The notes below the pieces were generated by a model. That model saw nothing but the letters and a program-made list of their open reading frames with translations. It ran no database searches and was not told the DNA's origin. A stretch of DNA of 64,000 nt, taken from the NCBI RefSeq assembly GCF_003573695.1, contig NW_020621603.1, positions 18,773,116 to 18,837,115 of the forward strand, written 5' to 3'. How positions within the stretch are numbered: the stretch's first letter is position 1; every line of letters starts with the position of its first letter. This document shows positions 36,250 to 63,981 of this stretch, piece after piece. The translations under genes were made by a program, and so were the position numbers. The stretch is from Papaver somniferum (lineage: Eukaryota; Streptophyta; Magnoliopsida; Ranunculales; Papaveraceae).

Positions 36250-37780
36250 GTATCCCAAAAACTTTGATACATATATTTGTTGCTCATTAGAAGACAACCT
36301 TGGTCATGAAAATATTTCATACTTTGATGATCTGTTAAAATCTTAAAATGTCGACCAAGCAAATAAGGACGCCATTTCTGAATGACATATACAACAACAA
36401 ACATTTTGTTGTCAGTTGGAAGATTCAAATGCTTACGAAAGACCATTACTAACAGTTTTACCATATTGCATCAATGTATCCCCTATTCCATTACCCGAAA
36501 CATCAGATCAATAACAAATTCTTTAGAGCCTGTTTGGTTCAAGGAATTGAATTCTTGGTAATCCAGTTATGGGGGAATGTGACCAATTCCTTGAACCAAA
36601 CAGTATGAATTAACTCTATATAATTGAAAATTTTGATTCCTATGAATCCAATTCTCTCCAAAATAATAGATTTCCATTATATTGGTCTAATAGTGCAATG
36701 GAATTTGATTCTAGGGTAAAAGAAAAAGTAGTTGGATTACCTCAACCAAACACTATTATTTTGGATTTGAATTCAATTTCATAGAATTCAATTCCAAGAA
36801 TTGGATTACCCCATAATGGAATTCCTAGAAATCTAATTCTTCCAACCAAACGATGTTTTAGAAAAATCGGGAAATGGTAGAACTGGAGTAGTAGATAAGG
36901 TTGTTTGTGATTGTTTAAAAGCTTTAGTAGCTTTATCAAACAACATCTTGGTCAATGGCACACTTATTTTCCAATAATTCTTAACAAATTTATGGTAATA
37001 ACCAGCTAACCCTAAGAAACCTTGAAGATCCTTAATTGTGGATGGAATAGACCAGTGAAGAATACTGGAGATTTTGTCATCCTCTACAGAAACACCATCT
37101 GCTAAAGCGATATTCCCAAGATAGCTTATCGACGACCTAGCAAAATCACACTTTGATTCCTTTACAAGAAGGCAATTAGCACGAAGTATTAGAAATACAT
37201 TGGATAATGATATATGATCTGAATTAGAATGACTATAAACCAATATGTCATCAAAAAAGATAAGTACAAATTTTCAAAGGTAAGGTCAAAAAATATATTC
37301 ATCAAACTCTGAAAAGTGGCTAGAGCATTATATAACCCAAACGACATAACCAAAAATTAGTAATGACCATCATATGTCTGAAACATTGTTTTGTGTATAT
37401 TAGCATCGTGAAGGAAGATTTGGTGGTACCCTGAACGCTGATCGAGCTTAGAGAAAATTATAGCACCGTGCATCTCATTAAGTAATTCATCAACCATTGG
37501 AATAGAGAATATGTCCTTGACAATTAGCGAAGCACGGGAAACAACACACATACGTCAATAACCGTCTTTATTACGAACTAACAGTATCGATGAAGAGCAA
37601 GGACTAGGAATGGGACGAATCAAACCTGTTTCAAATCAATTCAGCAAAAAACTTCTCAATTTCCACATTTTGGAAGTGAGGGTACCTATATGGGCAAATA
37701 TTGACCGGGGAAGAATTGGGAACTAGAGGTATATGATGATCATGAGAGCGTCGAGGAGGTAAGGACATGGGAGATCCAAA
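36250..37780 (-). pseudogene. Ty3/gypsy pol fragment (RT and RNase H)
   Basis: On the minus strand, from about 37770, it has LPPRRSHDHHIPLVPNSS and NICPYRYPHFQNVEIEKFFA, then RT text. This includes MVDELLNEMHGAIIFSKLDQ, RSGYHQIFLHDANIHKTMFQ, and FFDDILVYS in a shifted frame near 37235. The thumb/connection follows (SSILHWSIPSTIKDLQGFLG, LAGYYHKFVKNYWKI), and after the MITE an RNase H piece with QKWRPYLLGRHFKILTDHQS. At least three frame breaks and the MITE disrupt it. The 5' part (gag, protease) is not seen, and the 3' part is cut by the Sirevirus LTR at 36249. Confidence 0.88.
36527..36856. mobile_element. 330-bp MITE inside the Ty3 pol fragment
   Basis: The left end AGCCTGTTTGGTTC and right end AACCAAACGATGT are imperfect inverted repeats. 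The interior contains several inverse AATTCCAAGAATTGGATT-like words, so the whole can fold. TTTAG occurs on both sides (36522-36526 and 36857-36861). It interrupts RT/RNase H similarity exactly here. The superfamily is uncertain; the AGCCTGTTTGG-like end resembles common plant MITEs. Confidence 0.7.
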
Positions 37781-37924
37781 AATATATGTACCCTTAAATC
37801 TGTAAATTCACTTGTCTTATCTAGTACAACTTGGTTGGTACAACACTTTCTTTGACTGATATTAGACCCGTATGATTAATTTTCATGATTACTAATCTTA
37901 TGGTCAATTCTGGTACAAGATATA

Positions 37925-38474
37925 TGTTGGGTAATAACAATTAAAACTGAAAAAAATCAAATAACTAATCAATAAAAGAGGCACTTATCTGATTTTCGTG
38001 TGTTCTCCTTAGTCAACTGTTAATGTCTTGAATATCCTGCTAAACACCATGGAAACAAGAAAAACGGTAATGGTAGATTGAGACGCATGTTCAACATACT
38101 GTCCTTAAGACAAGAATGCCCGGCTACACTCTGAAAAAGATGATGCTATAGCCCTACGGGTACATCTGCCTCCAAGATACAACAATCTTAACAAGCTTGA
38201 ATAGCACATTCAAACTTGTCCTTCTAGAACTTGGCAGCGGAAAACTCACGAATCGTTAGCACTTAGAACCCTCGTATCAAACATCGAAAAAACGAAGAAG
38301 AAGTACTAAAAATCTTAGGAGATATAAGAGAGGTTTTTCTATATATCTATACAATAAAAAAATTCTTCATATATATAAAACCCTAACCCGATAAAATCAG
38401 GAAGGTGTTTTTATTTTTGGAAAAACCTTTTTATTAGTAATTTTTATTCACATAAAAATGTATTTTTTCCAACA
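37925..38474 (-). repeat. LTR (3' in element sense) of the gene-capturing element
   Basis: 550 bp. It differs from 45348-45898 at only a handful of positions by eye (for example CATAAAAATG against CATAAAACTG near the end), so roughly 99% identical, suggesting a comparatively recent insertion. It contains TCTATATATCTATAC and TTCATATATATAAAACCC, TATA-like in either direction. Confidence 0.93.
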
Positions 38475-40422
38475 ATCCCCCACATGAATAAAAATACGAT
38501 AAAACACGGAAAACAAGAAATATCATGAATAGGCATAGGTGTCCATAAGGTCTTGAACCTTTGCTTAGTGAGAGGTTACCTGAACTACTTATTAGCCAGT
38601 GTCCATTAGGTCTTGAACTGTCTAACATTTGGTGTAACTCGCGATAACAACCACACATGATATCTCCACGGTTGCTGCCAAGCTCCGCCGTTGTGTCCAT
38701 TTTGGCCCTGGACGTCTTGTTTCTCAGAATGCTCTAGAGAATCAGCTCATATTCTCATAGAAAGCGACCCACTTCCTCATTCAGATAGGTGAGTTCCATT
38801 AAGAGTGTTCACTGCTACACCCCACTTCAATCTTAAATTGAAACTATGGAACTCATTAAGACTTATTAAAGTCACCCTTCACATGCAGTCACACTATCAC
38901 ATCTACACCATAGGGAAGGGACAGAGAGAATATAATCCTCTGATAGTGTTTACCTTTACCTACCATAAATTAGTTGTCTCATTCGAAACCTTGATCTTGG
39001 GATCTCCAGTCAGCAAGGTTGAGTATCCTTCATGGCAAGTTTATTTTATATGAGCTTAAGTCCCATTCCCCCTCGATGTATAATTACGAACTATCTCTTT
39101 AGAAAATCCTTTCGTCAAAGGACCACTAATTTTTCTATTGACTTCCCTAAGTCTGTGAGGTTCTCTTTTGACTTTACATGTCTACTGAGACCTCTTTTTG
39201 ACTTCACGAATCAACTAAAATTACTTCATTAAAGAGTATAGTTGTCTTACCGAATTTGCCTTCTTCGAGTATGTCTAGACTTTGTCATTGCTCATTTACT
39301 TTAGACTCACATAGTCAATTGAGTTTCTGCAATGATGGCCACAGGCTTCGGTCACAGAGGAATATCTTCTAAGAAGCATCTTAGTAATCATTCATCTTCC
39401 TCTTATGCTTGAATTAAAGCACACGAACTTTGATTTCTTCAATATACAAGTTCATCTTGTCCGTTTTAAGGACTTCCTTAGACAGACACTCCTTAAGAGG
39501 ATACACACATAGGCTAAGATTTATCCATAGCCTGAAACAACAACATCTCTTAAGGTCAGTACAATATGTATTACATACACAATTTAAGATGTACCTCAAG
39601 TATCGCAAATATCTAATCAGATCATCCAGTAATTCTCTTGAGATACATGGGTATTTGTATACATCTGATATACTGCACATTTACAACACACATTAAACGC
39701 ATCGAGTTTGACAAAAACCATTTCCTTCAGAATTTCTTCTGGATCCTTTCGATCATTTAGATCATATCAGCCATCTTGGTCTTTCAGTCAAATCATAAAC
39801 ATATCACATATTTCATAGGTGGTTGTAAAGCATATATCACATAATTGAAATTAATTATGTACCTCATGCATTCCAATCTCTGGTCTTCTAATCAGAGCAT
39901 CCCTGTGTTTTCCCAGATTAAACGCGGATATGCACATCTATTTTGCAACACGTACTAAACACGTTAGACAGAAAATAAAAAAAATAATAAAAATATATAG
40001 TTACCTACTGATCCTTTAGACCATGTCAACCGCATATTAGTTTCCTGTCAAATCTGAAGTGGTCCATAATCACGTGTCTTTCTTATATTCTTCAAGGTTG
40101 TTTAATGCATTCATCATATACCTCTCATCCTTGATGGATTGCAAGATCACATTTCTTATCCCCCACATTTAAATACTTCTCTTAAGAATTATTTAAAACT
40201 TAGCTCTTGGTTTGAGCAAGTGCATGAATATGTGATGCTCTTCCCCTGAAGCGAGCTCCACTATACCTTTGCATGCTTATTCAAAAGAATTGGTAAATTA
40301 ACTTTCTCATACCGACGAGTACCGTTGTACCTTCGCATGATTTTATTGATGGAGAACACACTTTGATTCGCACAATCTAGTGATTCCAGTTCCCGCATAC
40401 ATCGCTTCGTCTTTGCACGTAA
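38475..40422 (-). other. Untranslated 3' region of the gene-capturing element
   Basis: The polypurine tract (inverse of ATCCCCCACATG) is at 38475-38486. The rest has no credible long frame; open frames at 39414-39696 occur on both strands over the same bases and are noise. Text such as GTGTCCAT(A/T)AGGTCTTGAAC is duplicated near 38549 and 38601. A stretch at 40261-40420 is open on the minus strand in continuation of the channel piece but does not resemble a channel. Confidence 0.55.
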
Positions 40423-41067
40423 AACAGATGTGAAAGTTGTAACAGACCAATAAATCGATGTAACATATCGAACTCCTAGACTCTCATCAAGCAAGTCACC
40501 AAGCTACGTTCGTTCTGGATGGCTTCTACGTGCAGCGATAGTATAATAAACACATGCAGCACAGTGAACGTAGAATATAGTCAGACAGAAAAGCCTGACG
40601 CACCTCACCCAAAAGTAGTTGAACTTGATGTTTTTTCTCCATTGCGGAAAGCAAAGAACACACTCTACGAAGACGCCAGAGACGAAGCATGATGCTCCAA
40701 GCAATTTCCCAATGGTTGTCAACGAATACGTAAGATTCTCTGTCGCGTAGCCAATGAAGAAGGTGATGAAGATATCTATCAAGAAGATTCCATCGATGAC
40801 AATATACGCGATCTCCAGTCCTCGAACTGGTTTGAAAAGAAAACCATATTGGAAAGGAGCCATCAGTGCGGTGTATACGACTAGCAGAAGGAGAAAGTTC
40901 TTCCAGATTTTGTAACTTCGATCATCAGGTGAAATTACTGATCGCTTCATGACTCTAGGGTAACTCCTCCTAGCACCACCAACTAATCCAGAATGGCTGC
41001 TTCCATGGTTGGAAAAAAAAAACATCAACTTGTTCAATGTCCTTCTCGAGCTCAAATCCACCACCAT
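40423..41067 (-). pseudogene. Captured fragment of a plant Shaker-type K+ channel
   Basis: Plant Shaker channels (AKT/KAT group) are voltage-gated K+ channels of the plasma or inner membranes. From 41067: RVMKRSVISPDDRSYKIWKN, then S1 (FLLLLVVYTALMAPFQYGF) and S2 (IDGIFLIDIFITFFIGYAT). S3 is missing. In another frame near 40630-40695 comes LRLWRLRRVCSLLSAMEKN, the S4 arginine segment and linker. The first frame then resumes with IKFNYFWVRCVRLFCLTIFY, S5, and RYVTSIYWSVTTFTSV, the start of the pore helix. After a TAG near 40505 the similarity stops just where the TxGYGD selectivity filter should be, so filter, S6 and cytosolic domains are absent. No ion conduction is possible. Family identity is secure; which subgroup is not. 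Confidence 0.85.
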
Positions 41068-41507
41068 CTTTTAATCAGTAGCAGACCTTCTCCCACTCTC
41101 AGCATCTTCATGACACTGCCAAGTTTCAAACTCGATGTACACTGCCTTCAACAGCAATCAATCCATTCCCAGGCATCGTGAGTAGCATCACTGATCAAAC
41201 TAGCATCATCACTGCCAACTCCATTGGTAATGGCAGCAGCACCTTGATCTTCTCCGTCACAGCTCCATTAACACCAGGAGTATTGCATCTCTATATCGAT
41301 AATGGCATAGACCAAGTCAGCTTTATCTCCTCACTGTCATTGTTCTGTTTTGCTCGTTCAACTCCTAAATATCACCGCCATTAGAATCGCTAGCAGTTAT
41401 CGTCTACTGCAATAAATGGCTCGAGCAGCAGCCAACAACTTCATTCTTTCGATCAGTCACCGTTAAACCTTCTCGATACTCTGCTCGACTTCTATCTAAG
41501 CCATATG

Positions 41508-41623
41508 TGATTCAATAATTGGAAGACGCACTGCAACAAGTTCAGAAAACAGCTCAAGAATCTCTTGTGCATCCATCATGTTCTCCTCCCGAATGATATG
41601 CTCGACCCGATGACGAAAGTGCA
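41508..41623 (-). pseudogene. Captured fragment of an IST1-like (ESCRT-III-related) gene
   Basis: IST1-like proteins act with ESCRT-III in multivesicular-body sorting. From about 41609 down the minus strand reads RVEHIIREENMMDAQEILEL, then FSELVAVRLPIIES, followed by HMA and a stop that do not belong to the family. The text corresponds to the helix region of the Ist1 domain in which (R)VEHIIREENM.AAQEILELFCEL.AVRLPIIE is nearly invariant in plants. About 36 residues survive, perhaps one exon. Upstream it ran directly into the F-box piece before the solo LTR split them at the AACTT target. Confidence 0.8.
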
Positions 41624-41628
41624 AACTT

Positions 41629-43949
41629 TGTAATATCCATCCCAAATTCAAGGGTATTTTTGTCTTTTACTAAAAGGGTATTTTTGTAATTTACTTAAGA
41701 GAGTATTTTGGTATTTTTAAATTATGGTTCACGTGACATGTCAAATTTATATCTTACTTGTTAAATCTAAAATTGACACTTGTCCACATAGTATTGGTTT
41801 TTTTTTTAAGAGTATTATAATTATTTTTTTTGTTATTTTTTTTTAAATTTAATGGCCTTCTTGTTTTAGACTTTTAGTGGAATGGAAATTAGGTGTGGTT
41901 AGACTCACACAATCAGTGGACCGAACAAAGGAATTTGAGCTTCTCTTTTTATTTTATTTTTACTTCTTGCCATGTGTCATTATTTAATAGGGCACGCATG
42001 ACATTCCTTGCGGTAAATCTTGTTTACATTTCGTTGGTGAAAATTCATGTGTGCGTGTAAACAGTGTATTTTGGTTGACTTAGAAAACTCTGACCGAGTT
42101 GTTCGTATTAGCTTAAAAATGTATATTTAATGCTAGGTGTCGCTACATCATTAGTTAAGAATTATTAGGGTTTAATGAATTTTGGCTATATATATCAAAC
42201 AAGAGGAGGTCCGGCAGTCGTGGAAGTTTTAGAATAAAAAAGTTTAAGCCTCCGTTCAATGCCTAGGTTTCCATATTCGTAGAAGAAAAAGAAAACGAAA
42301 CTGATTTGGCTACTTTAAAATTATTTTTATTATATCATACAAATCATCAAGGATAGTTGGGAGATTTTTTTAGCACCAGCTGGTTTGGAGATTTCAGAAT
42401 TCGTGCTAATATTACTAGCGTTTGAGGTATGCGCAACACAATCAAAAACCTTCTTTTATTTAAGTTTCTTTTAATTAATTTTATTTTGAAAGTTTTGATT
42501 CATATATGAATGATAATCGATGTTGTGAGTATGATTATGTATGTTGGGCTGCGGTCCATAGATTGTGATTCTTAAAAACAACTATGATGGGATACGAGAT
42601 ATCCTTGGGAACGGTTTTGTTCCCTAAACCCACGTGGGGCTCCCTAGGGCGAGCGGATTTTATGTGATTGATTTGATTGTTCTTATGGATGTGGTGTTTC
42701 CATGTATTTGTGATGCTATTAACCATGCTAGTTGTTTTAAAAAGAATTGAAAATGTTTGATAAAATGTTTTGTTGCTTCTTTTTCTACTGGGTGTCACAA
42801 CTCACGTCGTTTAATGACAAAAAAATTCCATATTTTATGGCACCACAAGGAGTTAATGGCGGAAAAGCGTAGAGATCGGTTTTGGTGCTATTATTAGTAG
42901 TTTGCATAGGATTTATGATTGGGATTGTAATAAAATATCATCAACTCTTTTAGATGATTTAATTAGTTAGTTATTGGTTATTAAAGCTTTAAAGATTATT
43001 GTATTAATGTATAACCAAAGAAAACAATGCTTTGCTTAGACTACTCTATTTGATTGAATAATGGAAATTTCTGGATCATGTCAGTTTGACTGTCTATCAT
43101 AATTATTATATAATACGTTTTTGTATCATTTTTTTATTTTACATGTAAAAATCTCTCAATATGTACATATAAAAATTTCATAATTTTCTGAGTTCCATAA
43201 GTATTTTTAAATCAATTGTTTTCACTGTACAAGGATCAGACGTTTTCTGTCAGATTCAATTTTACTGAAGTTGTCTATTTTTTTTAAATATTCTATGTCA
43301 TGTTTTAGCCTTTAGAGTCTACTGCAAACTCAAAGATGGTTCTTTTATCTTTTCATAATGATCAACCAAAGAAAATTTGAAGTTGTGAGTGAATTGATAT
43401 GATTTTTTCTAAAAAGAATCGTCACTGTTGTACGTTTCTGCAGTACTGGTCAACTACTCGTTTGACTATGGTCAAAAGGTATTTAAGATAAACTAAAAAT
43501 CCTAGAAATTTTATTACTGGAAAGGAGATAAGTTAGGATTCAGAATATATAATTATAATAATTTATGGATTCGTATTGGACTCAGTAAAAATTATTTGAG
43601 TGACCTGGCGTCAGTTTCTGTTTTATGAATCTTTCTTAAAAACGTAATTATTTTGGATTTAATCTGGAACTTTTAACGGTGAAATTAATTTTTCTGATAA
43701 AGTATATTTCTTTAGGGTTCATGAAAATTAAAACTCACGTCAAATTAACGGTTAGATGTTCCGAAAAGAATTTTTATGTATCCGCTGCAACAGAATTTCT
43801 GAATTAAACATAAATAAAGATTAAACAAAGAATTAGTCGTTTGGACTTGGGCCAAGTATGGAAGTCAGGGCCTGATATTTAAGGTAGCATTTTGGATTTT
43901 GGGTTTTGGATTTGGGTTGAAATCCAGGCCCGAAAATCGGGGTGTTACA
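41629..43949. mobile_element. 2.3-kb solo LTR inside the gene-capturing element
   Basis: It starts TGTAATATCC and ends GGGTGTTACA, an imperfect inverted repeat with TG...CA ends, and is flanked by AACTT on both sides (41624-41628 and 43950-43954). TGTAA...GTTACA ends with a GGG(G)TGTTACA finish are common in chromovirus-type Ty3 LTRs of plants. No coding similarity is present; it is AT-rich with no internal gag/pol, hence a solo LTR. It post-dates the capture event because it separates two captured pieces. Confidence 0.85.
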
Positions 43950-43954
43950 AACTT

Positions 43955-45082
43955 CCACTTAGCGAATTCCTCGACAGGAAACTGCAGTTTCTTCTGTATG
44001 CGAGGACCACATAGGCTTCAAATATCTAGAGTTGTCCGTAATCTTATGGGATATGGTATAACGCTTACTCCAAGATTCTCTCTTGAGGTAATCTTTGATT
44101 ACCCAAATTTCAAAACCGATGACAGGATTACCTAAAAGCACGCATAGACACCCATCCAACACACCAATATGCCGATATGTATAGTTAACGACTTCAGAAT
44201 CGTCTGGTTGTAGGATTTCTCTGGTAATCTCATCTGTTATATCCAATGCAACTAATACTTCGGGTGAAACTACTACTTTGGAGGTAGAAGATGACCGACC
44301 TGATTTGGACAACGCAAACGAATGAAGAGCCCCATTACAAAATACCCAGTACTCTTGTGATTTAAAACTACACATAATATAAGGGATATTTCGAATTCGT
44401 TTCCATGCATTCGATCTAAGTGAATAAACGACAACTTCAGACTGGTTGAAGTTTGAATAGCTCTTAATTCATACGAAGTTGTATTCATCACACTTCGAGT
44501 TATAACCGAACCCATGTCTGGTCGATAGGTAACCAAGATTCGGCTTACGAGACATATCATCAAATTCAGGTGGTGGTCTTGCCAGAAGTTTGTATTCAAC
44601 CCATTACATGAACCCACAAAAGAACTTTCAGCATTCACCAGCTGTTTGCTAGCGGGCGAAGATTCTATCTTTTGAATCGGCACTTGATTAATACCATCAC
44701 CATCAAGTAATGGTGATGTAAACGAATCATCATCTAAAGTGTTATATACTTCGTTGGCACCCTTTGGTGGCAGGATTCCAAAGATAAAAGAAATCCCTTT
44801 CCTGATTCCATAAGCGTAAGCAAAGTATGCCATTACAAGAACCAACCAAATCAACCAAACAGTATACATATGTGGATTTCACTGGTAGCCTTGCGAGGAT
44901 CTCAGGATAGAGATCTTGCGGAATGCTTGACATTGATCCTTTTCTCCGTTGGAGTTATAGAGCGAGCATAAACCCAGGGTTTGCATCCGGAGGTCGGATT
45001 TATACACCTCTGTGGTTGCATCTACAACGATCTTTGAACCACCAAACGATTCTGTAACACCTAGTCGCGGACGCTTCAACAT
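43955..45082 (-). pseudogene. Captured F-box / F-box-associated (FBA) gene fragment, rearranged
   Basis: F-box proteins recruit substrates to SCF ubiquitin ligases. From 44933: MSSIPQDLYPEILARLPVKS, the first half of an F-box, then VGSCNGILCLRLWNQERDFF and YLWNPATKGCQRS, typical of the first FBA blades. A second partial copy follows out of normal order (LDDDSFTSPLLDGDGINQVP ... FVGSCNGL), then in changing frames the rest: YEL.., MCSFKSQEYWVFCNGALHSF, LVALDITDEITREILQPDDS, IGVLDGCLCVLLGNPVIGFE and KDYLKRESWSKRYTISHKIT. It ends around 43965. The F-box lacks its second half, SCNG occurs twice, and there are at least four frame changes. A 67-codon frame upstream (45082-44879) is open but not recognised. 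It is a gene relic inside a retroelement and not a working gene. Confidence 0.85.
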
Positions 45083-45347
45083 CTACAATAAGCACATGGT
45101 CCAACAGCTTTACTGGCGTGATTTATAACGAGTATTATCAGATTGACCCGCCGAAATTAGAGGATATACAAGATATCCCATATAGGCCCCTGACTGAAGC
45201 ACATATTAACCAGTTAGGTTCATCACGATCACATGTAGACTTAAAAAAGAAAACCAGTCGATGTGTATAGTACGAGAGCTACTGATCAAACCCAATTCGA
45301 TTCTTTCTTAATTGCTATTCTAATATATATAATTCTTGTCTTAAGAT

Positions 45348-45898
45348 TGTTGGGTAATAACAATTAAAACTGAAAAAAATCAAATAACTAATCAATAAAA
45401 GAGGCACTTATCTGATTTTCGTGTGTTCTCCTTAGTCAACTGTTAATGTCTTGAATATCCTGCTAAACACCATGGAAACAAGAAAAACGGTAATGGTAGA
45501 TTGAGGCGCATGTTCAACATACTGTCCTTAAGACAAGAATGCCCGGCTACACTCTGAAAAAGATGATGATATAGCCCTACGGGTACATCTGCCTCCAAGA
45601 TACAACAATCTTAACAAGCTTGAATAGCACATTCAAACTTGTCCTTCTAGAACTTGGCAGCGGAAAACTCACGAATCGTTAGCACTTAGAACCCTCGTAT
45701 CAAACATCGAAAAAACGAAGAAGAAGTACTAAAAATCTTAGGGGATATAAGAGAGGTTTTTCTATATATCTATACAATAAAAAAATTCTTCATATATATA
45801 AAACCCTAACCCGATAAAATCAGGAAGGTGTTTTTTATTTTTGGAAAAACCTTTTTATTAGTAATTTTTATTCACATAAAACTGTATTTTTTCCAACA
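45348..45898 (-). repeat. LTR (5' in element sense) of the gene-capturing element
   Basis: 551 bp, partner of 37925-38474, starting TGTTGGGTAATAAC on the plus strand and ending TTTTTTCCAACA, followed by the TSD ATATA. Confidence 0.93.
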
Positions 45899-45903
45899 AT
45901 ATA

Positions 45904-48200
45904 TCGGCCCCCACATTTTCATAAAAAGGATTGCTTGCTGAAAATCATCTTTAAGGTGCTAATTCTAAAAGCACTATCAGGTCGTGCATTTATATCACAC
46001 ACCCCTATATTTTGATGAATTCATCATTATAACAACTCTGTTATATGACATACACCCTCACAATCCATACAATGGTTATGCAATCAGTATCCATGCTTCA
46101 TACTCATAAAAGAAATACAGTTTCTAATGAGTTCTTCACTGATCATGTGTATCAGACCCCTCAGTCTGAATTCACCCCTTCACATTCGGTTTGTTTCACA
46201 AGAATATATTAAGTACACTGTATACTTAATGTAACCCCAACCTATACCTTAGGGTTAATTATTTCTCTTATACATAAAGAGCTACAAATTTGTACTGTAA
46301 ATATTTTATCACTATAGATAAAATCAAGCACTGTTCAAATATTGCACCATCACCGAGTTTCTTAAACACAATGGATAGTTGTACAGTCTTATTTGGGAAG
46401 AAGACAAGGCTAGAACTGATTTGGTATTTAAACATCGCTTGTGACTATTGGAGTTTTGAATTGTATAAGTTATGTGACTGTGCAAACTGGGTACTTCCGG
46501 GAAGACGGGAACAAGTCTGGCGATATACTTTTCTATCATCCTAATGACTTATGGATGCAAATGCAATCCTTTAGTTATAAAGAAATCTGACTTAATAAAT
46601 TTGAACAGCTTTGTTTAAGTACGATCTTGTGGAGGGCTTGTGCCGTAAGGATTGGTGTGTGCATGTAGACACAGGTTCTACAAGACATAGATGTTCGGAC
46701 GGACGATTTCAATTCTACCTGTAAGTGTCGGTTGAATTTATCTTGGAATTTAAAATTGAAAAGTGTAATTTGAAAAGTCACGACCCTTCACAATCCAACC
46801 ATCTTGTGGAATCCTATGTTAGATTTGCTAGTATGGTTCGGATATGGTGATGACGCATGATCATGAATCTAGTAAAGATTCCGATTGAGTAGTTAATCAC
46901 TAAATAAAAGGAATTTCGTTTGGTCAAAAGTCTATTATTGAAGCCCATTAAAATCTTAATGGAAACAAATGGAAATAAAGTTGGAAGCGACCAGCTAATT
47001 CTAAATCACAAATTAAGCGAGTTTCTGTCAGTAAACAATCTAAGGCCAAGTGATTAGCCCTAGATTATAAACCACTCAAGAAAGTCTCTAAATTCTCAAA
47101 GTATTGTATGCGTACGGGGCAAGGCATCAGAAGAGACCTAAGGGTGTTGTTACTAATGGTCCATAAAGTCTATAGTAAACAACCAAATATTGTGCATTGT
47201 AGATTTTAGTTACTTTTGTCAACTATATTTTTGGGTGTTTCACAGTGATACTATTCTTTTAGAGAAACAGATCATTGTAGTATGTTTGGTAACTACTTCT
47301 GTCTGTTATTAAGGTCCATGGGAGAAGATTTTTAGATTAGTCTTCATGGAATTCAAACCAATAAATCATTTTGGAGAAGAAAATGATTGAGAACATCATG
47401 AGGACATGAATTGTATATGTCTATGGAATCTGGTTCCCCGAAATGCACATTACATACCAATATGTACCATTATCCATTGCTTTAGGATAATCTTCGTTAT
47501 CGATTTCGACAATAATACATCTCTAGTGTTATCTTCCTCATTTCATTACAATACTGTAATAATGGGCTTCATTTAATTTAATATTACAACTCCTGTTTAC
47601 TTAGTTACCAAAACGATAAAACAAGAGAAGAGAAACATAGAAAGAGATAACCAATCTAAACAAAATTTAAGAAAAATTACTTGGATGTATTGAGATGAGT
47701 AATCTCTTTACTTAAGACATTTAATGCCGTGTACATAATGTCGTTGCAGTATATGACATATGTCTTCAGCATAACAACACCTTTGGTGTTCTTCGCAGCA
47801 CTTCGAGGATCACCAAACGTCGAACTTAAATAGATGTAGCAAAAACTCTTCTTTAACTCTTGAAAACAATATGCAAACTATAAAATTCTAGTACTAATTA
47901 TGGCTCTAAAACACACTTTTGCAATGGAGAGTGGTTGGGGTTTATATAGATGCAAGGAGACTCTTTGAAAGATCTTTCCGTGAAGAGTCGCATCCTTTTG
48001 TGGAGAATCAGATCCCTTGAAAGAGTTTTAATTGAAATGGTTTATATGAATAGACACAACCCTTCAAAATTTAGTTGTAACTAACTTAATTTCTATTCAA
48101 ATTTTTCCAACAAAAGATCTTATAGCCGAATTTTCATGATATAAGATACATATCTTAATAATTGCATAGTGATGTAGAATAGGTGTGGCACCAAATTCGC
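45904..48200. other. Unassigned DNA between two LTR elements
   Basis: No gene, RNA or element could be named. Open frames are short and mirrored on both strands (for example around 46290-46544). The text directly right of the TSD (TCGGCCCCCACATTTTCATA) looks like the inverse of a polypurine tract, so the target of the gene-capturing element may itself have been a retroelement. A tentative LTR-like AT-rich stretch runs at 47640-48110. Confidence 0.4.
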
Positions 48201-60033: not shown

Positions 60034-63000
60034 ATGAAAGATTCAGTACAGACCCAAGTTCCACAGTTTAGTGGGAAGAATTATGATCGATGGAGCATCC
60101 AGATGAAGGTCTTGTTTGGTTTTCAGGAGCTTACGGAGATTGTTGAGGCTGGTTTCTTCGATGTAGATCCGGCAGTTGGTGCAGCTCTTCCTCAAGCCCA
60201 AAAGGATGATTTGAGAGAGAACAGAAAGAAGGACAAGAAGGCCTTGTACTTCATACATCAAGCCCTTGATGACGAAGTTTTTGAAAATATTTCAGCTGCG
60301 AAAACATCTAAGCAAGTGTGGGATATCTTGCAGAAAGCTTACAAAGGCGATGACAAGGTGAAAAGTGTAAGGTTGCAAACCTTACGAGGTGAATTCGAAT
60401 CTCTATCCATGAATGAATCTGAATCTATTTCCGATTATTTTTCTCGAGTTCAAGTTGTTGTGTATCAGTTGAGAGTTAATGGTGAAACTCTAGCTGATAA
60501 TCATGTAGTTGAAAAGATTATGCGATCATTGACAGAAAGTTTTGATTATGTTGTTGCTACAATAAAAGAAGGAAATGATATGTCTACTCTAACCATTGAA
60601 GGTTTAGAGGATTCACTGTGTGCTTATGAGTACAGGATGAAGCAGAGAAAGACAACTTCTTTAGAGCATGCTTTGAAAAGCAAGGCCGTTATCACTGACA
60701 AGGGAAGCTCCAGAAAAGGAACATCATCAAGTCCAGGCAAAAATGGCTCTCCGCACAAGAAAGATAAGTACAAAGTTGAATGCTACCACTGCGGCAAACT
60801 TGGACATTGCATCACTAATTGTTGGTTTAAGCCGAATAAGAAGTCGGAGAAGGCAAACTTTATAGAGATTGAAGAACCAGAAAAATTGTTCTTTGCTTGC
60901 AGTATTTCGCAAGAAGACGATCGCAGCAAGAATACATGGTTTTTGGATTCCTGTTGCAGTAATCACATGTGTGGTAATAAGGAGTTATTTTCCCAACTTG
61001 ATGAATCTGTTTTTGGAGTAGTGAACTTCGGAAACAAGGCCAAGGTTCTTATTTTGGGTAAAGGTAAAGTGCTTGTCGCCTTAGCAGATGATTCTCATCA
61101 TTGTATTCGCGATGTTTTTTATGTACCAAGCTTACATTGGAATTTATTCAGTATGGGTCAATCATCCATGAATGACCTTCGTTTTGTCATTGATGATGGT
61201 TTTTGCACCATTCAGAATCGTAAGAAGGAGCTGATTGTTACGGTTAGAATGACTAAGAGTCGTTTATTTCCTTTACGTATAAAAACTGAAATTGTGTGTG
61301 CTTTCGGTAATATTGTCCTAGATGAAAATTTGTTATGGCACTTCCGACTTGGTCATCTTAACTTTAATGGACTGCATTCTTTGGCGAAGAAAGAAATGGT
61401 TACAGGGATGCCACTGTTGGAAGAAGTTAACCGAGTTTGTGAAGGTTGTCTCATTTGCAAGCAACATAGGCATCTGTTTCCTGTAGGAACGTCTCGCAGA
61501 GCAACAAAGCAGTTGGAGATTGTATATTCAGATCTTTGCGACACAATGCAAACTGTATCACATGGAGGTAATCGTTATTTCCTTACTTTCATTGATGATT
61601 ATAGTAGAAAGACTTGAATTTATTTCCTAAAGAAAAAGTCTGAAGCTTTTGAAACTTTTAAGAATTTCAAAGTTTATGTTGAGAAGCAAAGTGGAAACAG
61701 TTTGAAGATACTTCGCACAGATAGAGGGGGAGAGTACAACTCCAAGGCTTTTGGATATTTTTGTAGAATGCATGGAATTAGACACCAACTTACATCCAGC
61801 TATACTCTACCGCAAAATGGCGTTGCTGAGAGGAAGAATAGAACTATAGCTGAAATGGCTCGTAGTATGTTGCATTACAAGAATTTACCGAAGTTATTCT
61901 GGGCGGAGGCAGTTGCATGTGCTGGTTATATTCTAAACCGGTGTCCCACCTCAAGTGTTCCCGACATGACTCCCGAAGAAGCATGGAGTAGTTACAAACC
62001 AGATGTTGCATCTCTTCGTGTGTTTGGGTGTGTTGCGTATGCTCATGTACCGTATGAAAAACGCCAAAAACTAGACGAGAAGGGTGAGAAGTGTATCTTC
62101 TTGGGATACAGTGATCTAACCAAGGGTTACAAGTTATTTAATCCTATCACCGGCGCTGTTATTGTTAGTAGAGATGTTGAATTCTTTGAAGATGAAGCAT
62201 GGCAGCGGACAAGTGCATAGAAGGTACAGATGGGTATCGAGTTAGAAGTCATCGAGAATGAAGAACCATAGCTCGCACCAGCAACACCTGCAGTACCGGA
62301 CAATCCTACTATGCCTGATGAAAATACTTCTGAATCTGATTCATCTCCAGAAGAAGCCCCAACAACTCGTGTCTCTACACGAACTCGTTCTCTCCCTGTT
62401 TGTTTTCAGAAGTTTTACATAATATTTTTGTTGATTGTGATCCTATCACTTATGTAGAGGCAGTACAAGATGATGGTTGGGTTCGTGCAATGAATGATGC
62501 AATTCATTCAATCGAGAAGAATGGCACTTGGGAGCTGACCACTCTTCCTCCAGAAAAGAAATCAATTGGAGTTAAATGGGTATACAAGACGAAGTACAAG
62601 CCTAATGGGAGTGTGGACAGACTTAAGGCGCGACTTGTTGTGAAAGGTTATAAGCAAAAGCCTGGAATCGACTACTATGAAGTGTTCCCACCAGTAGCTA
62701 GAATGGACACTATTCGTCTTGTTATTTCCTTGGCTGCTCAAAAGAAATGGAAGATTCATCAAATGGATGTTAAATATGCGTTTCTTAATGGTGTACTCGA
62801 AGAGGAAGTTTATGTAGACCAACCATTTGGTTATGCTAAGAAAGGTGAAGAAAATAAAGTACTCAGGTTGAACAAGCAGATGGATATATGCTCTCTACGG
62901 GCTTAAACAAGCACCACGAGCCTGGTACACTCGTATCGATTCCTATTTTCTTCAACATGGTTTTTAGAAATGCCCATATGATCCTACTTTATATATCAAG

Positions 63001-63981
63001 ACTACAACAGATGGATATATGCTTATTGTCTGTTTGTATGTAGATGACTTGATTTTCACTGGAACTAATTCGAGTATGATATCTGAATTCAGGGATGCTA
63101 TGATTAGTAATTTTGAGATGACTGACATGGGTCTCATGTCTTATTTTCTTGGATTGGAAGTTGTGCAGGAAGATAACGACATATTCATATCCCAAAAGAA
63201 GTATGCTGCTGATGTGTTGAAGAGGTTTAAGATGGATTATTGCACACCTATAAAGACACCAGTGAAAGCTAGAGTTCAGTGGGAGAAGACATGTAATACT
63301 GAGTTAGTGAATCAAACTGATTACCGCCAACTGGTTGGGAGTCTACGCTACTTAATAGCGACCAGGCCTGATATTGCATTTGGAGTTGGTTTAGTTAGTA
63401 GATTCATGGAGGCACCTAGTCAAGCTCATTTACAAGCTGCAAAACGGATTCTCCGCTATGTAAAAGGTACACATGTTGATGGTATCTTTTATGCATCATC
63501 TAATAACTCTGAACTGCTTGGTTATACGGACAGTGATTGGGCTGGTGATCATTTAGATCGAAAGAGTACTTCTGGTTTCTTGTTTCTTATGGGTTCTAGC
63601 GTAATCTCTTGGTCATCAAAGAAACATCAAGTAGTTGCTCTCTATACTGCCGAAGCGGAATACATAGCTGCTAATGCTACGACATGTGAAGCCGTTTGGT
63701 TACGACGTGTACTTGAAACCTTGAATATCATTCAAGCATCAGCAACAAAGATATATTGCGACAACAAGTCTGCAATAGCTTTAACCAAAAATCCAGTGTT
63801 TCATGGAAAAACCAAGCACATTGATATCAAGTTTCATAAAATACGCGAGTTTGTGCAGAGCAGCGAGATTGAACTGGAATTCTGTGAGTCACAAAATCAA
63901 ATTGCAGACATATATACTAAACCATTGAAAGCTGAAGCATTTTACAAGATGAAAAGGCTTATGGGTGTTTGTACTATTTGA
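60034..63981 (+). pseudogene. Copia gag-pol polyprotein, several lesions
   Basis: Gag starts MKDSVQTQVPQFSGKNYDRW and ends with the zinc knuckle CYHCGKLGHCITNC (60781-60822). The protease motif is WFLDSCCSNHMCG; the usual Gly of D-S/T-G reads Cys. Integrase has H/C zinc residues (HFRLGHL...CEGCLIC), FIDDYSRK, then a TGA at 61615 in place of the expected Trp, and RTDRGGEYNSK ... PQNGVAERKNRT (61702-62220). Stops at 62218 and 62269 and a frameshift near 62400 precede RT ([40 protein letters not shown]). A 13-bp insertion at 62877 shifts the frame within LNKALYGLKQ, and a TAG lies at about 62967. The catalytic YVDDLIF is at 63040. RNase H (LLGYTDSDWAGDHLDRKSTS, YCDNKSAIALTKNP, KHIDIKFHKIREFV) ends at 63981. 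All domains are present but there are at least five inactivating changes. Confidence 0.93.

Follow-up and report, generated by a model that had tools for sequence, protein, structure and literature searches.

An LTR retrotransposon family of Papaver somniferum carrying sense-oriented pieces of unrelated host genes in a common frame

The 64,000-nucleotide stretch of the Papaver somniferum genome analysed here (the window; contig NW_020621603.1, positions 18,773,116 to 18,837,115 of the forward strand) contains, at 37925–45898, a long terminal repeat (LTR) retrotransposon with paired TG...CA LTRs and a 5-bp target site duplication (TSD), the interior of which carries pieces of unrelated host genes. 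The LTRs differ by 4 mismatches and 1 gap over approximately 551 bp (Kimura two-parameter distance 0.0073). An initial annotation, made from the sequence alone, had described near-identical LTRs, the TSD ATATA and a polypurine tract setting the minus strand as sense, and these were borne out. The features, in sense order, are given below; contigs are written C and other loci L.

37925–45898, sense on the minus strand: LTR retrotransposon (LTR pair, TSD, polypurine tract)
45899–45903, no strand: right TSD ATATA, read from the letters
45348–45898, minus strand: 5' LTR, 551 bp
45333–45347, minus strand: candidate primer-binding site ATCTTAAGACAAGAA, immediately after the 5' LTR
44988–45332, minus strand: leader, between the candidate primer-binding site and the cargo
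44742–44954, minus strand: possible F-box amino-terminal remnant, read by eye
43985–44760, minus strand: F-box gene piece with FBA region (weak Pfam match and DNA identity)
41629–43949, no strand: nested TG...CA insertion, 2,321 bp, with TSD AACTT at 41624–41628 and 43950–43954
41506–41607, minus strand: IST1 exon piece, 96–97% to C2:41890776–41890877 and C3111:516471–516572
41345–41504, minus strand: 160-bp piece of a low-copy family without recognised gene (DNA matches)
41002–41357, minus strand: repeat-like piece, every frame interrupted by stops; 79% to C8:53034307–53034626
40423–41006, minus strand: AKT1-like K+-channel piece (Ion_trans and AKT1 matches)
38487–40417, minus strand: family 3' tail, common to subfamilies with different cargo
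38475–38486, minus strand: polypurine tract, sense CATGTGGGGGAT, abutting the 3' LTR
37925–38474, minus strand: 3' LTR, 550 bp
37920–37924, no strand: left TSD ATATA, read from the letters

From the 5' end the interior consists of the leader, the F-box piece, the IST1 exon piece, the 160-bp piece, the repeat-like piece, the AKT1-like piece and the common tail. More than three pieces make up this mosaic, and two of them, beyond F-box, IST1 and AKT1, contain no recognised gene. The F-box/FBA, IST1 and K+-channel pieces and their sense orientation, as proposed initially, were confirmed by protein and DNA matches; the picture of a three-gene interior had overlooked both the additional pieces and the nested 2,321-bp insertion. 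The FBA_3 scores (E 0.036 in the window, 0.015 in sister copy L009) both lie below the Pfam cut-off, and the FBA identity is supported because 44760–44078 matches an F-box-like locus (C1:1767695–1768394, at 1.77 Mb) with 89% DNA identity; no Pfam F-box match was found at 44742–44954. The IST1 piece gave a protein match of 35 residues (E 2e-5) and a DNA match of 102 bp, 96% identical to a genomic exon. The 160-bp piece occurs at full length at at least eight other loci (90–95%), and the repeat-like piece shares 13 and 5 bases with the pieces on either side. The channel piece matches Ion_trans with 26 bits against a cut-off of 25 bits and AKT1 with E 2e-34, and has AKT1-like relatives on C2 at 62.9 and 218.0 Mb (91–93%). 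The donor genes were sought, and the relatives of F-box, IST1 and AKT1 sit at separate loci. The cargo pieces are interrupted by stops and frame changes, the longest minus-strand frames having 201, 188 and 169 amino acids.

Several other places are related to these pieces. Positions 44990–45046 and L023:4984–5040, from two subfamilies, are 81% alike and share a similar open frame (...VDATTEVYKSD... in the window, ...IDATKEVNKSD... in L023), which may reflect an earlier gene capture in the leader. L041:1638–7835 holds three tandem copies at a spacing of approximately 3.08 kb and has 57 bp in common with cargo piece 41056–41000. L039 and L040, two AKT1-like channel loci that lack introns and are related to each other (L040 has an open frame of 875 amino acids), each adjoin a phospholipase-D-like gene (named by eye); the pair is perhaps an old retrogene duplicated together with its surroundings.

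The stretch 41629–43949 is recognised as a nested insertion because its flanks (37925–41628 and 43948–45898) are contiguous in all 11 sister copies of the window chimera, from every one of which the insertion is absent. It is separate from the element proper, the length of which is accordingly approximately 5.65 kb, and it came into the window copy later than the formation of the chimera. Its last 777 bp have an 88% match in L048 with an identical terminus, and it is probably a solo LTR.

The genome (2.715 Gb, 34,283 contigs) was searched with parts of this and related elements, the numbers of candidates scored being 40 of 521 for the LTR, 40 of 233 for a NOT1/EF2 query, 40 of 187 for F-box/leader, 40 of 55 for the IST1/middle region, 40 of 154 for the phosphatase, 40 of 4,210 for the tail and 23 of 23 for the channel; all copy numbers are lower bounds. 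The LTR query gave at least 40 matches at 94–100% (best 40 of 521 candidates) and, as the initial annotation had anticipated, the related elements include both some with and some without these gene pieces. Twenty loci were taken, comprising 16 paired-LTR elements, three LTRs (L021, L022 and L027) which, having no family interior alongside, are taken as solo LTRs, and L028 with one LTR. A perfect 5-bp TSD was present in 14 of 17 paired-LTR elements (the window and 13 of the 16 others), so the elements are separate integrations. LTR divergence was 0.0018–0.0149 in the 15 other paired elements, truncated L011 being excluded, and the window element is probably a young insertion.

The element had been described as a mobile LTR element, which stands; that it belongs to a subfamily of 12 copies had been overlooked. 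The F-box/IST1/AKT1 chimera is present in the window and 11 sister copies, on 9 contigs in all, with 98–100% identity in the channel piece. The interior is approximately 4.57 kb long in 10 of the 11 sisters and 4,266 bp in L010, which has a deletion in the tail; a 1-kb contig, C21857, gives a further partial match. Among the matches listed, the joins between cargo pieces occur only in the 12 elements and partly on C21857. Mean divergence among the 12 copies is 1.1–1.6% for the F-box, middle and AKT1 pieces, which is below that from the donor relatives, so that capture appears to be earlier than amplification, in keeping with the movement after capture proposed initially. Among the places scored for the channel, F-box/leader and IST1/middle queries (23 of 23, 40 of 187 and 40 of 55 candidates), the three fragments were not found together in the same order at an unrelated locus without LTRs, and the LTRs have relatives elsewhere. 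Segmental duplication was rejected, as the elements have individual TSDs.

The frame around the cargo is common to a dispersed multicopy family. The polypurine tract CATGTGGGGGAT is exact in 14 of 17 other family loci compared, with a single change in the remaining three, and ATCTTAAGACAAGAA is exact in 15 of 18, with a single change in L015, L017 and L049. Primer-binding sites usually start with TGG; the candidate site does not, and it was matched to no tRNA. The leader stretch 45290–44988 occurs with 94–95% identity at at least five other loci and with lower identity at more, and a leader-like locus at C7:14014380 lies approximately 2.3 kb from a family tail. Further tails stand at places without the listed cargos (e.g. 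C1:65398337, C4:58891592, C7:231064519 and C5:203998326), so the family is larger than sampled.

Within this frame the cargo varies. At least two copies, L013 and L019, possess the LTRs of the window element, the first part of its leader and its tail (97% identical), with unrelated cargo, namely pieces of NOT1 (CNOT1_TTP_bind, E 2e-52) and EF2 (E 5e-24). Over 14 sequences from both groups the tail differs by a mean of 1.3%. The NOT1 cargo is 94–96% identical to C5 and 90–92% to C1. The EF2 end of the query recurs at about ten other places among the matches listed (83–90%), and a shorter EF2 part at further places (76–82%), which may include EF2 genes. L048 and L049 contain the EF2 match and the family leader without the NOT1 piece, and on these comparisons EF2 looks like the older cargo and NOT1 like the younger. 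In L028 the cargo is a purple acid phosphatase (Pur_ac_phosph_N, E 3e-14), found at at least eight loci including L028 at 99–100%, in six cases with a match that spans the full query or begins at its third base. An LTR is placed 70 bp away from the start of this cargo on C11, and directly behind the tail on C4. L023 to L025 carry cargo without an assigned gene.

No gag or pol had been recognised initially, and a tblastn search accepting E values up to 0.01, in which the queries were a single pol set each from Copia and Ty3, likewise gave no match in the window element. The same pol search gave none in 22 family loci, of which three are solo LTRs and one is partly masked; it was positive at the source loci of the pol sets and at a Copia copy elsewhere in the window. 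With no gag or pol found and an interior of several kilobases, the element is a non-autonomous LTR element resembling the large retrotransposon derivatives (LARDs), a class that carries a size criterion. The family would be mobilised in trans. Elsewhere in the window, 60505–63714 on the plus strand shows similarity to Copia-like gag/integrase, reverse transcriptase and RNase H. Directly outside the element, 36833–37554 on the minus strand is a remnant of a Ty3-type reverse transcriptase (named by eye), and the element may have been inserted in or beside an older Ty3 element.

The structure of the cargo bears on the template from which it was taken. The phosphatase donor at C7:265906107–265910204 matches in five collinear pieces (96–98%, coordinates only), the four gaps between them (88, 140, 1387 and 736 bp) being absent from the element; the edges of the first gap (88 bp) are blurred by a 25-base query overlap. 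In NOT1 a 108-bp GT...AG intron of the C1 relative is missing and the letters show an exact exon-exon join in the element, the exons so joined sitting 27 kb apart on C5. Donor introns are thus absent from the phosphatase (by coordinates) and NOT1 (by letters), the comparison being uninformative for AKT1 and the F-box gene, and it is in these sister subfamilies that the strong evidence of intron loss lies. For the window copy, the check on donor introns suggested in the initial annotation gave a mixed result. The IST1 match begins within one base of the start of the C2 donor exon, at the splice acceptor, and the AKT1 piece is without 81 bp that start with GT and end with AG in both relatives; it measures 583–584 bp in all 12 copies, none of which, judged by length, retains the 81 bp. 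The loss of an AKT1 intron failed as a test of RNA capture, the closest relatives being intronless. All six recognised gene pieces (F-box, IST1, AKT1, NOT1, EF2 and phosphatase) are sense-oriented, and overlaps of 5 and 13 bases are present at two internal joins. The missing introns, the IST1 exon start, the AKT1 gap and the sense orientation point to spliced mRNA as the template.

We consider it likely that this is a non-autonomous family, mobilised in trans, which has on repeated occasions taken up spliced host mRNA through template switching and has then amplified. The conserved frame would consist of the LTR, the primer-site-like motif, the start of the leader, the 3' tail of approximately 2 kb and the polypurine tract, with reverse transcriptase and integrase coming from an outside source. 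While copying the element RNA, the reverse transcriptase would jump to spliced host mRNAs and return, using short matches, and such switches would swap the middle of the element for sense-oriented host gene pieces. Successful chimeras would then amplify as subfamilies (F-box/IST1/AKT1, NOT1/EF2, purple acid phosphatase and others), the window copy gaining its nested insertion afterwards. Template switching as the step, mobilisation in trans, and the number and order of the switches are what we infer here; for chimeras of this kind, the part of a review cited here names template switching within particles (PMC13317346).

A number of observations weigh against this interpretation. The window's own cargo gives only moderate evidence for RNA: its two nearest AKT1-like genes already lack introns, the shared AG allows three placements of the GT...AG gap (a chance fit of about 1% by rough estimate), the IST1 piece stops approximately 3 bases short of the exon end and not at a splice site, and the F-box relative on C1 is intronless within the matched stretch. 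Two cargo pieces (41504–41002) have no recognised gene. The pieces of the phosphatase donor are known from coordinates. One segment of L048/L049 is out of order relative to L013, so that DNA rearrangement also acts. The TSD is absent in three of 17 elements (L011, with its truncated LTR, L015 and L020), the candidate primer-binding site has no assigned tRNA, and no helper was found, an autonomous partner having been sought indirectly through the pol search of family loci.

The main rival, unlikely in our judgement, is that intronless DNA copies were captured, processed pseudogenes made by a long interspersed nuclear element or another element having inserted into the LTR element or next to it and been taken up at the DNA level. 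Intronless DNA templates do exist in the genome, since the nearest AKT1 relatives are intronless, and the displaced segment in L048/L049 shows DNA-level or repeated rearrangement. However, no poly(A) run is present at the AKT1/tail join, the one join examined for poly(A), the AKT1, IST1 and NOT1 pieces are internal parts of genes, and the uniform sense orientation and the two joins sharing just 5 and 13 bases are not readily explained in this way; successive insertions would moreover have to spare the LTR, the leader start and the tail in several subfamilies. That a Helitron or Pack-type DNA transposon built the cargo and then inserted into the LTR element is very improbable. In maize, according to the part of the survey cited here, more captures of gene fragments are attributed to DNA transposons than to LTR elements, 1194 of them to Helitrons and 462 to others (PMC2774510), but the missing introns of the phosphatase and NOT1 cargo are unexpected on this route and largely refute it, the cargo varies among subfamilies inside one frame, and no inverted-repeat pair of at least 30 bp was found in 37000–47000, shorter repeats and Helitron ends not having been searched. 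Chance similarity or an assembly artefact, conceivable in an assembly of 34,283 contigs with the window on a secondary contig and FBA_3 alone below its cut-off, is refuted by 12 copies on 9 contigs, 98–100% identical in the channel piece and most with their own TSDs, and merits practically no credence.

The closest known counterpart is Bs1 of maize, a low-copy element, whereas here amplifications of 12 and at least eight copies are seen. It had been cited in the initial annotation as a single-gene capture, which is incorrect; according to the portion of the review used here, Bs1 is an LTR retroelement that contains parts of three host genes (PMC13317346). It resembles the window element in that one LTR element holds pieces of several unrelated host genes, here F-box, IST1 and AKT1, and in this sense a plant LTR element that captured more than one gene is already known. 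Unlike Bs1, the poppy family comprises several subfamilies in which one frame holds different cargo, among it the bulk of a spliced phosphatase mRNA; Bs1, as that text describes it, forms a fused, translated gene (PMC13317346), whereas no single fused frame is present in the window element. The maize survey of Baucom et al. 2009 likewise concerns LTR elements with captured gene fragments, 425 gene-bearing elements representing at least 189 captures, but in the section cited none of the 425 has more than one standard nuclear gene, in contrast to the three of the window element (PMC2774510). Gene fragments in LTR elements are similarly reported in the cited part of Jiang and Ramachandran 2013 for rice and sorghum, where multi-gene elements are not counted (PMC3726574). 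In pepper, NLR genes in LTR elements without gag/pol are attributed, in the passages drawn upon, to captured spliced mRNA (PMC5664825); the cargo there consists of NLR genes, and here of several unrelated genes with cargo replacement in one frame. For Veju and BARE-2 of the Triticeae, abnormal template switching is also invoked for new LTR-element sequence, but the sequence gained is, in the review portion cited, unknown DNA or another retrotransposon and not host mRNA (PMC13317346). What is new here is the replacement of cargo within one conserved frame across several subfamilies. In the open-licence literature searched, no paper was found naming this family or an LTR family that serially exchanges unrelated mRNA cargo, a result that speaks weakly for novelty.

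Few cases have so far informed the question of how host genes enter plant LTR elements. This family offers young subfamilies, identifiable donor relatives at approximately 89–98% identity, joins whose positions are mapped, lost introns, and copies both carrying and lacking given cargo, and the presence of such features in one family makes the order and mechanism of capture directly testable. A bolder proposal, which we put forward tentatively and hold somewhat less probable than its opposite, is that the family is a general mRNA-capturing vehicle, a fixed frame of LTR, leader and tail in which spliced host mRNAs are exchanged repeatedly at the RNA level; if so, it would keep generating multi-gene chimeras within a short period, some of them containing the greater part of an mRNA. 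The family points to an RNA-level route for multi-gene chimeras, which are usually credited to Helitrons and Pack-MULEs, and it is a source of intronless gene fragments which annotation may take for genes.

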